A DNA stretch of 64,000 nucleotides from Aerococcus suis (lineage in GTDB: Bacteria > Bacillota > Bacilli > Lactobacillales > Aerococcaceae). The notes beneath the pieces are model-generated. The model searched no databases, had not been told where the DNA came from, and saw nothing but the letters and a program-made list of their open reading frames with translations. Location of the stretch: contig NZ_FWXK01000002.1 in NCBI RefSeq assembly GCF_900176325.1, forward strand, positions 62,001 to 126,000. The letters run 5' to 3'. The translations under genes were made by a program, and so were the position numbers. Shown here piece after piece: positions 40,001 through 60,773 of this stretch. How positions within the stretch are numbered: the first letter of the stretch is position 1; each line of letters opens with the position of its first letter.

Positions 40001-41370
40001 TTCTTTTCGGAGAGGATAAAGTCTTTAGGGCAGGAACAATTGGTACTGTTGCTGAAAAAACGGCTTTTGGATATGTCTTAGGTTATGATCGTGATAACAA
40101 CTTAAATTTACGTAAAACGGAGAAAGAATTTTTAGCGCAAGGTGCTACTGGTGTAAAACGGACAACTGGACAACATCCAGGAGGTATTATCGTTATTCCT
40201 GAATATATGGATGTTTATGATTTTACCCCAATTCAATATCCGGCCGATGATCAAAGTGCTGAGTGGCGAACGACTCACTTTGATTTCCATTCTATTCATG
40301 ACAATGTGTTAAAACTTGATATTCTAGGGCACGATGATCCTACAATGATTCGGAAATTACAAGATTTATCAGGCATTGCCCCAACCGACATCCCAGTAGA
40401 TGATCCTTCTGTCTATGAATTATTCAATGGTACTGAAATCTTAGGTGTGACGCCTGAACAAATTTATTCTAAAACAGGGACATTGGGAATCCCTGAATTT
40501 GGGACAGGTTTTACGCGTCAAATGTTAGAAGCAACTAAACCAACTACGTTTGCTGAATTATTACAAATTTCAGGTTTGTCACATGGAACGGACGTGTGGT
40601 TAGGTAATGCTGAAGTTTTAGTTCGAGAAAAAGGGCTACCATTATCTGAAGTCATAGGCTGTCGTGACGATATTATGGTGTATTTATTGCATAAAAATTT
40701 ACCTGAATCGGATGCGTTCCAAATTATGGAAAAAGTTCGGAAAGGTAAAGGATTATCAGATGAACATAAAGCGATTATGCGAGAACATGATGTTCCAGAA
40801 TGGTACCTAGAATCCTGTGAAAAAATTAAATATATGTTCCCTAAAGCTCATGCGGCAGCTTATGTTTTGAATGCTATGCGTGTTGCGTGGTTTAAAGTTC
40901 ATCATCCCATTTGGTATTATTGTGCCTTTTTAAGTGTTCGTGCAACTGACTTCGATCTTGAAGCAATGACAAACGGATTACAAGCTACTAAAGCACGAAT
41001 TGAAGAGATTCGTAACAAAGGGAATGACGCTAGCAATAAAGAGAAACAAACATTAGTTATTTTAGAGATTGTAAACGAAATGCAAGAACGTGGTATCGAG
41101 ATGAAAATGGTTGATGTGGAAAAATCTGATGCTATGGCGTTTGAAATTATAGATGATCATACACTATTAGCGCCATTCCGTGCCGTAGATGGTTTAGGAA
41201 ATAATGTTGCCAAACAAATTGTCAAAGCCAGAGAAGAGTCGCCATTCTTATCTAAAGAAGATTTACAAAAACGGGGCAAAGTATCTAAGTCATTAATAGA
41301 ATATATGAGTGAACAACATATGCTAGATAATTTACCTGATCAAAATCAATTAAGTTTATTTGATTTTTAA
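37048..41370 (+). CDS. polC: DNA polymerase III PolC-type alpha subunit
   Basis: PolC is the main replicative polymerase of low-GC Gram-positives, with a built-in proofreading exonuclease. In order: an N-terminal domain (1-220), an OB fold near 230-330, a PHP domain starting HLHTNMSMLD near 340 that is split by the exonuclease with VVFDVETTGLS near 424, a four-cysteine zinc motif (CPEC...CPHC) near 911-945, and the polymerase from PDIDLNFSGEYQ near 965 to the end. It is 1440 aa from ATG 37048 with AAGGAGG five bases upstream. Upstream in-frame codons belong to the rseP-polC gap. A strong terminator follows. Confidence 0.97.
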   Translation: MANSHAEAFQVLLKQLNWSPNHEIFQKGEIKNVTVHTQSRVWQFDLSFERRLPAPLFKELEERLANDFQPGRAHMRVIVSEELPVNPEEVYDYWPIIIKRSNISNGLTNQIFKNQLPTYENNQFIIRCDNDQVKQVIEKNYIAVVKQNYQMAGFPVLPFEVVVDVDTANDRQDNFQARQDHLMEAQQEIAKAANKRQHEAPKQKEADVLPKVNKVAIGKPVPHDERLRPMSSYVEEQRQAVMEGVVFEVEIKQLRTGRQILKMKLSDYTSAFIVQMFSKNDQDKAIFAAIKTGMWLRVKGDIKMDDQFERDLVVTANSFEEIHKEKRQDTAPKGEKRVELHLHTNMSMLDATNSITDYANQAKAWGHEAIAVTDHSALQAFPEASQAAKDTGLKMIYGVEANVVDDGVPIAYNPSDIELEDATYVVFDVETTGLSAVYDQIIELAAVKMHRGNVIDQFEEFINPGHPLSSTTINLTGITDAMVQDAKPVEEVMQSFKDWTDGTILVAHNASFDMGFLNATYKRLNIPKAENPVIDTLELSRFLHPQMKSHRLNTLAKHYNVALEQHHRAVYDSETTGALCWIFLKEAASEHDITNHKDLNKRVGEGDAYKRTRPFHATIIAKNQDGLKDLFKLISASNVTYYYRTPRIPRSLLNKSRKNLLIGSACSEGEVFEALMQKGRQEAINKASFYDYLEIMPKGIYEPLIKDELINDEETLENIMRELISVGEEVDRPVVATGNVHYLNPEDKPYREILIHSIKSNRTKYFPEAHFRSTDEMLNDFAFLGEEMAHQLVVENSQKIANLIEPIEPLKDKLYTPSIEGSEEQITEMSYEKAKSIYGENLPEIIEKRLKKELSSIIGNGFSVIYLISQKLVKKSNDDGYIVGSRGSVGSSFVATMMGITEVNPLAPHYVCPECHHSEFFTDGSVGSGFDLPDKECPHCGTKMNKDGHDIPFETFLGFKGDKVPDIDLNFSGEYQPRAHAYTKVLFGEDKVFRAGTIGTVAEKTAFGYVLGYDRDNNLNLRKTEKEFLAQGATGVKRTTGQHPGGIIVIPEYMDVYDFTPIQYPADDQSAEWRTTHFDFHSIHDNVLKLDILGHDDPTMIRKLQDLSGIAPTDIPVDDPSVYELFNGTEILGVTPEQIYSKTGTLGIPEFGTGFTRQMLEATKPTTFAELLQISGLSHGTDVWLGNAEVLVREKGLPLSEVIGCRDDIMVYLLHKNLPESDAFQIMEKVRKGKGLSDEHKAIMREHDVPEWYLESCEKIKYMFPKAHAAAYVLNAMRVAWFKVHHPIWYYCAFLSVRATDFDLEAMTNGLQATKARIEEIRNKGNDASNKEKQTLVILEIVNEMQERGIEMKMVDVEKSDAMAFEIIDDHTLLAPFRAVDGLGNNVAKQIVKAREESPFLSKEDLQKRGKVSKSLIEYMSEQHMLDNLPDQNQLSLFDF

Positions 41371-41382
41371 AAATGATTGTTT

Positions 41383-41416
41383 AAGAGATATTGGGAAGAT
41401 CCAATATCTCTTTTTT
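41383..41416 (+). terminator. Intrinsic terminator after polC
   Basis: AAGAGATATTGG (41383-41394) pairs with CCAATATCTCTT (41401-41412), followed by six T. It ends the uppS-polC run. Confidence 0.92.
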
Positions 41417-41437: not shown

Positions 41438-41477
41438 ATTGCAATAAATTTACAATAATTGCAATCTATTATAAAAT
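41438..41477 (+). promoter_or_regulatory. Promoter with two ATTGCAAT palindromes before the DUF1538 gene
   Basis: TTTACA (41449-41454) and TAAAAT (41472-41477) are 17 bases apart. The self-complementary octamer ATTGCAAT occurs twice, at 41438-41445 just upstream of the -35 and at 41458-41465 in the spacer. Their centres are 20 bases apart, about two helical turns, so a dimeric regulator could bind both on one DNA face. Candidate operator; the regulator is unknown. Confidence 0.5.
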
Positions 41478-41539
41478 AGAAGAGATGTCAGACAATTTTT
41501 GTTTATTTTGAAGCAAAAATAAAAAAAAGGAGGAGTTTA

Positions 41540-43009
41540 ATGGATTTACTGGTTGATAAGTTTAAAGAAGTCTTATCATCGGTTTTACCTATTGTGATTA
41601 TTGTGATGCTGTTATCTTTCACAATTGTCGACGTTGCCCAAGATATGATGCTTCGTTTTATTATCGGAGCTATCTTATTAATTTTTGGGTTGACTATTTT
41701 TCTATTTGGTATCGATGTTGGGATGCAACTAATTGGAGATAATTTAGGTCGGTTTATGAGTACCCAAACTCGTAATAGTATTGTTATGTTCATCGCCTTT
41801 TTGGTAGGATTTGCAGCGACAGTTGCAGAACCCGATTTGCTCATTTTGGGTGGGCAGATAGCCGATGCGACAGGAGGAACGTTTTCAGAAACGTTTATTG
41901 TCGGCATTGTTTCAATAGGAGTTGGATTAATGATTGCCCTAGGTGTTCTACGATTAATTAAAAGTTTTGGTATTAAATACTTTTTCTTAATTATTTATGC
42001 CTTAATTGCCGTTTTGGCATTACTTTCCACAAATGAATTTATGGCTATGGCGTTTGATGCTTCTGGAGCAACAACTGGTGCCTTAACTACTCCTTTTATA
42101 CTAGCTATTGGAGCGAGTGTTTCTAATAGTAAAGGGGGAGCCAGTGCGAGTGATGATTCGTTTGGGTTAGTTGGTGCGATGAGTACAGGACCTATTCTAG
42201 CCGTATTATTACTGTCATTAATTCAAAAAGGTGGATTCCAAGGTTCAGGGGATGCTTATCAATATACTGAAGGAATTTTTTCACCTTTTATTCATGCTAT
42301 TGGGGAGACATTATTTGAATCTCTCATTGCTTTAGCGCCAATTTTAGTTATTTTTCTAATTATTAATTACCTTTCACTTAAAATATCAAAGCAACGATTA
42401 AAAGATATTTTTAAAGGGGTTGTCTATACGTTACTTGGATTAACCGTTTTCCTAATTGGTGTTAATCAAGGCTTTATGGACATGGGAAGATTTTTAGCAA
42501 CAGAGTTAGCTAATGATCACCAAAACTTGTTACCAATTATTGCGCTAGTGATGGGATTAGTAGTCGTTTTAGCTGAACCTGCTGTTCATGTTCTAGGTGA
42601 GCAAGTTGAAGATGTCACTGGTGGATATATCAATAGTAAGTTATTGATGGGAGCGTTATCCATTGGTGTTGGATTAGCATTAACATTCTCAATGTTACGA
42701 ATTATGATTCCAGGGTTACAATTATGGCACTTTTTATTACCTGGTTTTTCTATTGCATTGATACTCGCTTTCTTCGTTCCAGATTTATTTACTGGTCTTT
42801 CCTTTGATGCTGGTGGCGTCGCTAGTGGTCCAATGACCGCAACGTTTATATTAGCCTTCTCACAAGGAGTAGCGGACACTTTACCTCAAGCAGATGTCTT
42901 GGTCGATGGATTTGGTGTGATTGCAATGGTTGCCATGACCCCTATTATTATGGTACAAATATTAGGATTGATTTTTAAATTGAGAACTCGTAAAGTAGGT
43001 ATGGATTAA
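41540..43009 (+). CDS. DUF1538 membrane protein with internal duplication
   Basis: A 489-aa integral membrane protein of the DUF1538 family, with about a dozen hydrophobic segments and no signal peptide. It is two repeats about 250 residues apart. E97 in VAEPDLLILG matches E346 in LAEPAVHVLG, both followed by an aspartate-TGG or ADATGG element. FDASGATTG at 172-180 matches FDAGGVASG at 422-430, and each repeat ends with a TGPI/TPII helix. Buried glutamate, aspartate and glycine-rich breaks suggest a transporter or channel with inverted or tandem repeats. AAAGGAGGAG precedes the ATG. A tandem PII-like gene follows after 19 bases, so PII control of transport is inferred. Confidence 0.88.
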   Translation: MDLLVDKFKEVLSSVLPIVIIVMLLSFTIVDVAQDMMLRFIIGAILLIFGLTIFLFGIDVGMQLIGDNLGRFMSTQTRNSIVMFIAFLVGFAATVAEPDLLILGGQIADATGGTFSETFIVGIVSIGVGLMIALGVLRLIKSFGIKYFFLIIYALIAVLALLSTNEFMAMAFDASGATTGALTTPFILAIGASVSNSKGGASASDDSFGLVGAMSTGPILAVLLLSLIQKGGFQGSGDAYQYTEGIFSPFIHAIGETLFESLIALAPILVIFLIINYLSLKISKQRLKDIFKGVVYTLLGLTVFLIGVNQGFMDMGRFLATELANDHQNLLPIIALVMGLVVVLAEPAVHVLGEQVEDVTGGYINSKLLMGALSIGVGLALTFSMLRIMIPGLQLWHFLLPGFSIALILAFFVPDLFTGLSFDAGGVASGPMTATFILAFSQGVADTLPQADVLVDGFGVIAMVAMTPIIMVQILGLIFKLRTRKVGMD

Positions 43010-43028
43010 TTGGGAAAGGAGATGCACG

Positions 43029-43679
43029 GTGGATTATCCAGTAGTATTACTTGGTATTGTTAAAGACGGCCAAGGAAGTAAATTTTTACAAGCATGTAAA
43101 GACGGTGGATCAACAGGTGGAACCGTGTTACGAGGACTAGGAACAATTGGCAATAAAGTCATGAATATTCTAGGTCTTCATGATCGACGGAATGAAGTTA
43201 TTCTGACGATTGTCCCGAATGAACTTGAAGATTCACTGCATCAATTGATTTCAAAACGTCTGCATATGGACAAGCATGGACAAGGCGTTTTGTTCTCTTT
43301 AGCAGCAACTAGTTTGATCGGTAACCATGGAAAAGACTATCAATTTCAAGAAAGTGAGGAAAATATGGCGGATCATCAAGTGATTATAACGATTGTTGAT
43401 CGTGAATTTGGAGACGATGTTGTGGCGGCAGGTAGAGAAGCAGGCGCTCGAGGAGCAACTATTTTACATGGTCGAGGCACAGGATCACGTGAAGTCTCTA
43501 AACTCTTTCATGTGAATATTGAACCTGAGAAAGAAGTTGTACTAATGGTTGTCGATGGTGATAAAACAAAAACTATCTCTGACAATATTGTTAAGGAATT
43601 AGATATTCGTGCAAAAGGAAAAGGCTTATTGTTCACGATGGGTGTCAATCAAACAACAGGGCTTTACGAAGCGGACTAA
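43029..43679 (+). CDS. Tandem PII-like (GlnB-fold) regulator
   Basis: PII proteins are trimeric sensors that block or open membrane transporters. This 216-aa chain holds two PII-like domains, about 1-101 and 113-216, joined by an acidic linker. Each has the GGSTGGTVLRG or AGARGATILHG turn and ends with GQGVLFSL or GKGLLFTMGV, the strand that closes the nucleotide cleft in the family. The GTG start has AAGGAG seven bases upstream. Codon 113 is an ATG (43365) preceded by GTGAGGA, so the second domain could also be made alone as 104 aa. Co-transcribed with the DUF1538 gene. Ligand unknown. Confidence 0.85.
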   Translation: MDYPVVLLGIVKDGQGSKFLQACKDGGSTGGTVLRGLGTIGNKVMNILGLHDRRNEVILTIVPNELEDSLHQLISKRLHMDKHGQGVLFSLAATSLIGNHGKDYQFQESEENMADHQVIITIVDREFGDDVVAAGREAGARGATILHGRGTGSREVSKLFHVNIEPEKEVVLMVVDGDKTKTISDNIVKELDIRAKGKGLLFTMGVNQTTGLYEAD

Positions 43680-43691
43680 GAGATGGATATC

Positions 43692-43720
43692 TTGCACGTT
43701 AGGTGTTAATGTGATATATT
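43692..43720 (+). promoter_or_regulatory. Promoter of the rimP-nusA-infB operon
   Basis: TTGCAC (43692-43697) and TATATT (43715-43720) are exactly 17 bases apart. It lies between the PII gene and a strong hairpin, so all transcripts from it must pass that hairpin before rimP. Confidence 0.6.
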
Positions 43721-43743
43721 ATTAACTGATTAATGACCACATG

Positions 43744-43772
43744 AGAGTGAGCGGGGACGCTCACTCTTTTTC
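43744..43772 (+). terminator. Terminator/attenuator in the rimP leader
   Basis: AGAGTGAGCG (43744-43753) pairs with CGCTCACTCT (43758-43767) around GGGA, followed by five T. It would end the DUF1538-PII transcript and can also attenuate the operon that contains nusA, whose product promotes intrinsic termination. Confidence 0.8.
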
Positions 43773-43809
43773 ATGAATTAAGTATCTAAAGAATGAAATG
43801 GAGGATAAT

Positions 43810-59180: not shown

Positions 59181-59447
59181 AATAGATAAAAGCTTAGTCA
59201 TGAGCAGTAACAAAGCCTTTTAGTTCAGAGAGCTTATGGATGGTGAGAATAAGCCTAAGAGATTGTGAATCCGCATAACTAGCTGACTCTGTAAGCCAAT
59301 ATTGGTGAAGGAGCTCCGGTATCAGCCGTTAACTATGAGTGTAAGTCAATGACTATGACTTAAATTAGGGTGGTACCGCGGATAATTATGTTTGTAATAA
59401 CCATTTCGTCCCTTCCAAGGAATTGGAAGCGATGAAATGGTTTTTTT
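59181..59447 (+). promoter_or_regulatory. T-box riboswitch of serS
   Basis: A T-box leader: the stem I elements CAGAGAGC and GGATGGTGAGA are at 59225-59247, the T-box core AGGGTGGTACCGCG is at 59367-59380, and the terminator AACCATTTC...GAAATGGTT with T7 is at 59399-59447. The likely specifier is TCC at 59270-59272, in GTGAATCCGC, a serine codon that matches serS downstream. Uncharged tRNA-Ser would favour the antiterminator and open serS. Confidence 0.88.
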
Positions 59448-59456
59448 GTATTTTAG

Positions 59457-60773
<1,317 letters not shown>

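Follow-up and report, generated by a model that had tools for sequence, protein, structure and literature searches.

A DUF1538 membrane protein and its tandem PII partner in Aerococcus suis: a proposed PII-gated cation/proton antiporter module

What does a PII protein do when it is encoded directly beside a DUF1538 membrane protein? The question is raised by a gene pair in a 64,000-nucleotide stretch of the Aerococcus suis genome (contig NZ_FWXK01000002.1, positions 62,001 to 126,000 of the forward strand), hereafter called the window, in whose coordinates all features are given. The first gene (41540..43009, + strand) encodes a DUF1538 protein of 489 residues, and the second (43029..43679, + strand, GTG start) a protein of 216 residues with two PII domains, for which we propose the name UmpP. 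Both open reading frames (ORFs) and their spacing of 19 bases, as given in an earlier reading of the letters alone (the sequence-only reading), were confirmed. With a probability of roughly 0.6, we consider the pair to be a module in which an inverted-repeat monovalent-cation/proton antiporter of the DUF1538/UmpAB family is gated at its cytoplasmic face by a dedicated tandem PII. Antiport by UmpAB and gating of transporters by PII proteins are already known; their conjunction, a dedicated PII subfamily, DUF1538-PII fusions, multi-domain PII chains and an inverted solo/paired/fused series were not found in the literature (open-licence PMC papers, as for all literature statements below), where no paper links PII to DUF1538 and the sole co-mention has 'PII' inside a sequence motif.

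For the linkage analysis, DUF1538 loci (numbered L; genomes are numbered G) were drawn from the order, the phylum, named genome contigs, Actinomycetota and plasmids, giving 282 loci, 267 of them distinct by sequence; the distinct loci are mostly from Bacillota with some from Actinomycetota, and a few still overlap (e.g. L140/L201, L207/L221). A PII was counted as linked when a PII-domain gene lay on the same strand within 700 bp of DUF1538. This was found at 259 of the 267 distinct loci (274/282 before duplicate removal), so that the conserved PII neighbourhood expected by the sequence-only reading exists, with direct fusions in addition. Broken down by sample, a linked PII was present in 76 of the 76 order genomes examined, out of 83 with DUF1538 (at L051 only as a 70-residue frame), in 88/90 genomes examined from the phylum sample, out of 139, in 13/14 Actinomycetota genomes, and in 5/5 plasmid records examined, out of nine, in which NCBI annotates it as 'P-II family nitrogen regulator'. 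Two of the five plasmid records are alphaproteobacterial. Across 295 genomes of the order, with presence of this PII type scored at E 1e-5 or better, 82 had both, one had DUF1538 only (G182, 85% complete), none had the PII type only and 212 had neither. Of 14 control genomes, by contrast, 13 have ordinary PF00543 proteins and none has DUF1538, so this PII type looks dedicated to DUF1538. Independent support is given by the NCBI annotation on the plasmids and by Pfam, PF00543 being matched by all five of the PII proteins or chains scanned (those of the window, L195, L213, L083 and L021); the fused PII domain of L097 and the first PII domain of the window protein, taken alone, have no Pfam match. 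Among the flanks of 85 loci (L085-L164 and L195-L199; 456 ORFs clustered) no widely recurring third gene was found, and the module therefore looks self-contained; judged by sequence motifs of their representatives, the largest flank cluster (nine loci) is ABC-ATPase-like and the next (six loci) GGDEF-like. At four loci (L140, L235, L239, L249) two DUF1538-PII modules stand in tandem, and on the mobilizable plasmid pGW6_2 of Methylocystis rosea (L195) a DUF1538-DUF1538-PII module lies between insertion-sequence genes.

With U denoting a DUF1538 half and p a PII domain, the commonest architectures among the 267 distinct loci are [U.U][p.p] (134), [U][U][p] (40), [p.p][U.U] (16) and [U][U][p.p] (16), followed by [p.p][U.U.p] (12, with two more fusions cut off at contig ends), [U][U][p][p] (8), [U][p] (7), [U.U][p.p.p] (5) and [p][U.U][p.p] (4); the remainder are rare or without p, and both gene orders of DUF1538 and PII occur. 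At 14 loci the PII domain is part of the membrane protein itself (U.U.PII), following the last DUF1538 segment after a linker of 13-22 residues, with domain E-values of 2e-15 to 2e-26. Read from sequence, these fusions are the strongest sign that the two partners may form a physical complex, and would put the PII at the C-terminal side of the membrane protein. Fused DUF1538 genes are accompanied by multi-domain PII chains at 177 of 189 loci (seven have none and five a single domain only, two of these being the cut fusions), compared with 16 of 69 split DUF1538 pairs (52 with a single domain only, one with none). The matching pseudo-symmetry that the sequence-only reading had suspected between a two-fold membrane protein and a two-domain PII is thus visible as a tendency, although a single PII accompanies many split pairs and three domains are present in some lineages.

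The DUF1538 protein matches Pfam PF07556 in two stretches (412.4 bits against a cut-off of 22.6), and consists of an UmpA-like half joined to an UmpB-like half. The two are homologous, with 30% identity over 225 columns, and E97 shares one alignment column with E346, D173 another with D423, as the sequence-only reading had paired them. Its statement that DUF1538 has no assigned substrate has to be corrected: UmpAB, a DUF1538 gene pair from Halomonas zhaodongensis, was reported in 2017 as a heterodimeric pH-dependent Na+(Li+,K+)/H+ antiporter, which according to the sections of that paper covered here is active from pH 6.5 to 9.5 and, expressed alone, in vesicles of E. coli KNabc (PMC5484666). 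The window protein resembles UmpAB in its two homologous DUF1538 halves and its conserved acidic residues, and differs in being encoded by one fused gene instead of two and in scoring well under the cut-offs for UmpA and UmpB. Antiporter function is therefore reasonably inferred for it, as a likely property of a homologue and not as a transferred annotation.

In the AlphaFold2 (AF2) model of the DUF1538 protein (predicted local distance difference test, pLDDT, 88.2; predicted template-modelling score, pTM, 0.86), each half has seven main helical segments, and the most conserved motifs, AEP (E97, E346) and FD..G...G (D173, D423), coincide with breaks in two of them. In the first repeat, the conserved A96-E97-P98-D99 (41825..41836, + strand) forms the break between helices 79-95 and 98-110, and F172-D173...G180 (42053..42079, + strand) lies where one helix ends at 177 and the next starts at 183. 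The second-repeat counterparts are A345-E346-P347 (42572..42580, + strand), with E in 190/190 fused C-halves, and D423...G430 (42806..42829, + strand), with D in 189/190 and one gap; over 525 half-domains, nearly all have E or D in these two columns, the exceptions being gaps. Against the PDB, the model gave no Foldseek match at E 0.001 or less and a best VIA Z of 4.8. Such a lack of matches does not prove a new fold, and single domains of models longer than 400 residues can escape detection. The best Foldseek match, VcINDY bound to fumarate (E 0.016, probability 0.80), was too weak to use, and assignment of a substrate by fold was dropped.

The two-fold pseudo-symmetry proposed by the sequence-only reading was borne out, the halves being in fact inverted according to their lysine plus arginine (K+R) bias, which was counted in loops defined from the AF2 model of the window protein. 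Fused N-halves have a bias of +6.2 (positive in 190/190) and fused C-halves of -7.3 (negative in 190/190), while split UmpA-like genes stand at +4.2 (positive in 66/67) and split UmpB-like genes at -5.3 (66 of 71 negative, three positive, two zero). By the positive-inside rule, these opposite biases place the two halves in inverted orientation with both the N- and C-terminus of the fused protein inside, and therefore the C-terminus on the same side as the PII in the DUF1538-PII fusions. The sections of the UmpAB paper examined do not state an opposite orientation of the halves (PMC5484666). Seven solo DUF1538 proteins have a mean bias of +0.6 (range -1 to +2), near zero as for dual topology, and five of their genomes (G702, G717, G732, G744, G503) have a single DUF1538 match; the solo type has the look of a homodimer with dual topology. 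A similar succession, from solo dual-topology proteins through pairs to fused antiparallel ones, is described for the DUF606 family of membrane proteins, and the DUF1538 biases match in size those tabulated for other dual-topology or antiparallel proteins in the parts of that paper covered here (PMC3962082). DUF606 is another family, and each form of DUF1538 has a PII partner. We infer an evolutionary direction from solo over paired to fused genes.

The partner protein is a chain of two PII-like domains, as had been read from the sequence. PF00543 matches its second half only (residues 118-209; 37.2 bits against a cut-off of 25), which contains domain D2 (43374..43676, + strand; T-loop HGRGTGSREVSKLFHVNIEPEKE). 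The first half, D1 (43029..43358, + strand), is under Pfam detection and diverged, but paralogous to D2 (26% identity, pairwise E 3e-10) and of the same fold: the AF2 model of the chain (pLDDT 84.5, pTM 0.81) has two beta-alpha-beta-beta-alpha-beta units with the PII fold in both. Structure prediction has therefore upheld a fold whose absence had been named beforehand as refuting the sequence-only reading. A profile of the D2, single and solo domains, i.e. without D1, retrieved 34 sequences from the PDB (E 0.01 or better), almost all of which are named PII or GlnK, with 9p1x as the best (E 9e-8). Among structures, the best 50 VIA matches (Z 9.1-9.9) include PII, GlnK, SbtB, CPII and PotN proteins, besides CutA and one NIF3-related chain; Foldseek, ranked by E-value, puts 3gn6 (ferredoxin-like repeat protein) and 5f9p (anthrone oxidase-like) before PII chains.

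The sites of these domains were compared in GlnZ numbering with the canonical ATP-site residues of GlnB/GlnK, which we take to be R38, Q39, K58, K90 and R101. This comparison failed to find the canonical set: in all classes I, V or L stands in place of K90 and mostly G in place of R101, and R38 and Q39 are replaced in most members of the subfamily, with H as the commonest substitute for Q39 among D2, single and solo domains. What is kept is K or R at position 58 and the B-loop glycine G89. The ordinary nucleotide sensing assumed by the sequence-only reading is thereby rendered doubtful, and it is improbable that the chain retains the usual ATP/2-oxoglutarate chemistry. A short T-loop, (G/A)RG(S/T)GxHE, is well conserved in D2, most single and solo domains and is followed by IEPEKE except in solo domains; in D2 of the window protein it reads GRGTGSRE, followed by IEPEKE. 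D1 is more variable and lacks this signature, so that the tandem chain appears to join one conserved T-loop domain to one diverged domain. PstA is a PII-like receptor of cyclic di-AMP, and this nucleotide was considered as a ligand. It is disfavoured, since the module would also have to use it on the two alphaproteobacterial plasmids and alphaproteobacteria are not known to use cyclic di-AMP.

Given that the PII accompanies DUF1538 in nearly every genome examined, in some species as part of the same protein, its probable role is to switch the exchanger on and off. In the mechanism that we propose, the two inverted seven-helix halves in one chain would exchange Na+ or K+ against H+, with E97/E346 and D173/D423 at the broken helices forming the ion and proton site. 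The T-loop of D2, ending in IEPEKE, would be the docking element on the cytoplasmic face; a ligand, or the cation or pH state, would alter it such that the PII blocks or frees the antiporter, and the block could guard the cell against proton leak when antiport is unwanted. Binding of such a ligand in the canonical ATP/2-oxoglutarate mode is improbable. Blocking is favoured over activation because UmpAB was active when expressed alone in E. coli (PMC5484666); activation, or a purely structural role of the PII, is possible.

A number of observations weigh against a PII-gated antiporter. At eight loci no PII lies next to DUF1538: two (L173 and L211) stop where the contig ends, and at two others the contig runs on for a further 345 bp (L042) and 752 bp (L163); L011, L013 and L022 (G234, G282, G274) are second fused DUF1538 copies, with sequence examined only 519-678 bp upstream, in genomes whose other copies (L054, L062, L064) have a PII; and around L247 about 2.4 kb in either direction is free of one. 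The co-occurrence counts come from related genomes and are not independent of phylogeny, and the PII profiles used for counting were trained on the neighbours of the earliest loci. PII regulation of any DUF1538 member was not found in the literature; the terms PII and P-II are absent from the main text of the UmpAB paper, in whose sections covered here UmpAB was tested without any cognate PII (PMC5484666). The test host has PII proteins of its own, E. coli matching PF00543 as a control genome. Finally, the window protein fails the cut-offs of the NCBIfam equivalog models for UmpA and UmpB (NF041627 and NF041628), with 160 and 152.4 bits against 490 and 500. It is therefore filed as an UmpAB homologue and not as UmpAB, and its substrate may differ; eight further DUF1538 proteins, from split, solo and PII-fused genes, are also far under these cut-offs.

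These scores, together with the VcINDY match, speak for a PII-gated transporter whose substrate is a different one, for example ammonium, K+ alone or some organic ion. We regard this as rather unlikely, because the best stretches for UmpA and UmpB (residues 4-228 and 256-478), both under cut-off, follow each other in the correct order, acidic residues are conserved at the helix breaks of both halves, and the fold match is weak, the best VIA Z belonging to proteins other than VcINDY. If, on the other hand, the PII sensed nothing and were a permanent structural subunit for assembly or for a fixed conformation, this would agree with the replaced ATP-site residues, with its almost constant presence, the fusions and a domain number that tracks the state of the transporter gene. 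The conservation of K/R at position 58, of G89 and of the T-loop in D2-type and most single domains suggests a working switch instead, and in E. coli UmpAB showed activity when expressed by itself (PMC5484666); a purely structural subunit is thus unlikely.

A conventional GlnB/GlnK-type sensor of ATP, ADP and 2-oxoglutarate, tying the antiporter to the nitrogen or energy state, would fit the PF00543 match and the structural similarity to PII proteins, PotN among these. We consider it quite improbable, given the replacement of R38, Q39, K90 and R101 in most members of each class, and since the absence of this PII type from all DUF1538-less genomes among the 295 argues that it is no general nitrogen sensor in the order. 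That DUF1538 and PII are neighbours by chance or by a loose operon habit would be in line with the frequency of short operons in bacteria, but has a vanishingly small probability in view of the 259 linked loci, the occurrence of both gene orders, the fusions, the plasmid copies and the matched presence and absence; we take it as ruled out by these linkage and co-occurrence counts.

The PII-gated antiporter proposed here has parallels in known systems. In GlnK-AmtB (PDB 2ns1), a PII acts on an ammonium channel. The likeness lies in a PII on a membrane transporter, with T-loop action at the cytoplasmic face expected for the window pair, and the difference in the transporter family and in the window PII, with its shorter T-loop, altered ATP-site residues and multi-domain chains. 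SbtB is a PII-like protein that partners the bicarbonate transporter SbtA, and is likewise the dedicated partner of one transporter family; it matches the window PII by fold only, and its PDB entries are apo or contain AMP, cAMP, ADP or ATP. The top VIA match, with Z 9.9, is PotN of Lentilactobacillus hilgardii (PDB 7o4x), which shares the PII fold and comes from a lactic acid bacterium, but is a single domain with 16% identity to the window PII. PotN reportedly represents an energy-state sensing PII subfamily of Firmicutes and is said to be tied to a polyamine ABC transporter; in the literature, PotN and a fragment of PotA are labelled next to each other.

How a cell shuts off its cation/proton antiporters, by which internal pH and sodium are set, is a general question. 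If our proposal is true, PII control, known for the transport of ammonium and bicarbonate, also reaches the homeostasis of pH and sodium, and a 'P-II family nitrogen regulator' annotated beside DUF1538 gains a concrete target, nitrogen regulation being an unlikely role. The solo, paired and fused forms of DUF1538, each with a PII, would further offer a natural series for the joint evolution of inverted-repeat transporters and their regulators.

More tentatively, the modules may constitute a new, widespread class of PII-gated ion antiporters served by a PII subfamily of its own; the PII ring would here be a hetero-assembly of D1- and D2-type domains, as if one pseudo-trimeric ring capped each antiporter and sensed a non-canonical ligand. 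PII proteins form trimers, which makes it attractive to think of a hetero-trimer in which D1 and D2 are joined by a further D2-like domain. Three PII domains per fused DUF1538 do occur, either as one chain (L075, L078, L081, L082, L083), as a U.U.PII fusion plus a two-domain chain, or with a single domain across the antiporter gene (L018, L034, L052, L091). In the PII domain tree (163 rows, 114 columns), which is poorly resolved, with long branches and 84 of 160 inner branches open, these third domains (fused, upstream single and triple-chain) do not form one group and mostly fall among the D2-type, by which a repeated origin is suggested, not shown. Against the three-domain ring stands the genome of the window itself (1.38 Mb in 13 contigs), which has two matching PII domains only, with no PF00543 match up to E 1 besides the tandem PII; the idea leaves the window unexplained unless two stacked rings or mixed trimers are assumed. 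An unlinked extra single PII domain is found in some genomes of the window's family, e.g. G060, G234, G282 and G214; like G234 and G282, G274 also carries one, the extra domains of these three genomes belonging to the same PII subfamily. At L031 (G098), DUF1538 has a single-domain PII beside it, and some 185 kb from there is a 256-residue frame that matches the PII domain twice.

The sequence-only reading had described the gene pair as a closed unit with its own promoter and terminator, of which the boundary on the upstream side is supported. A hairpin at 41383..41412 (+ strand), with a 13-pair stem followed by a T run, is the terminator of the upstream gene, and we read it as probably insulating the module from that gene. 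The candidate promoter, TTTACA-17-TAAAAT (41449..41477, + strand), has 10/12 consensus matches. Promoter-like matches in the region are no commoner than in shuffles (10 found against 12.0 expected, standard deviation 3.8), so that the module may plausibly, but not demonstrably, have a promoter of its own. The hairpin after the PII gene (43745..43771, + strand; 8-bp perfect stem with U5) may be the module terminator or the attenuator in the next operon's leader, the latter because a promoter-like stretch precedes it: by eye, TTGCAC-17-TATATT is seen 5' of the hairpin within 43692-43771, although absent from the list of the scan.

The module is flanked by an ORF of 1460 residues ending at 41370 and an ORF starting at 43798, which from their translations are putatively polC and rimP-nusA. 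The flanking ORFs of two other Aerococcus loci, L085 and L091, match each other and resemble those of the window in order and length; in L085 (Aerococcus kribbianus), the second half of DUF1538 is 82% identical to that of the window. An Rfam scan of the window gave three matches, none of them at the DUF1538-PII module; a T-box leader (RF00230) was located at 59186-59416, upstream of an ORF at 59469.

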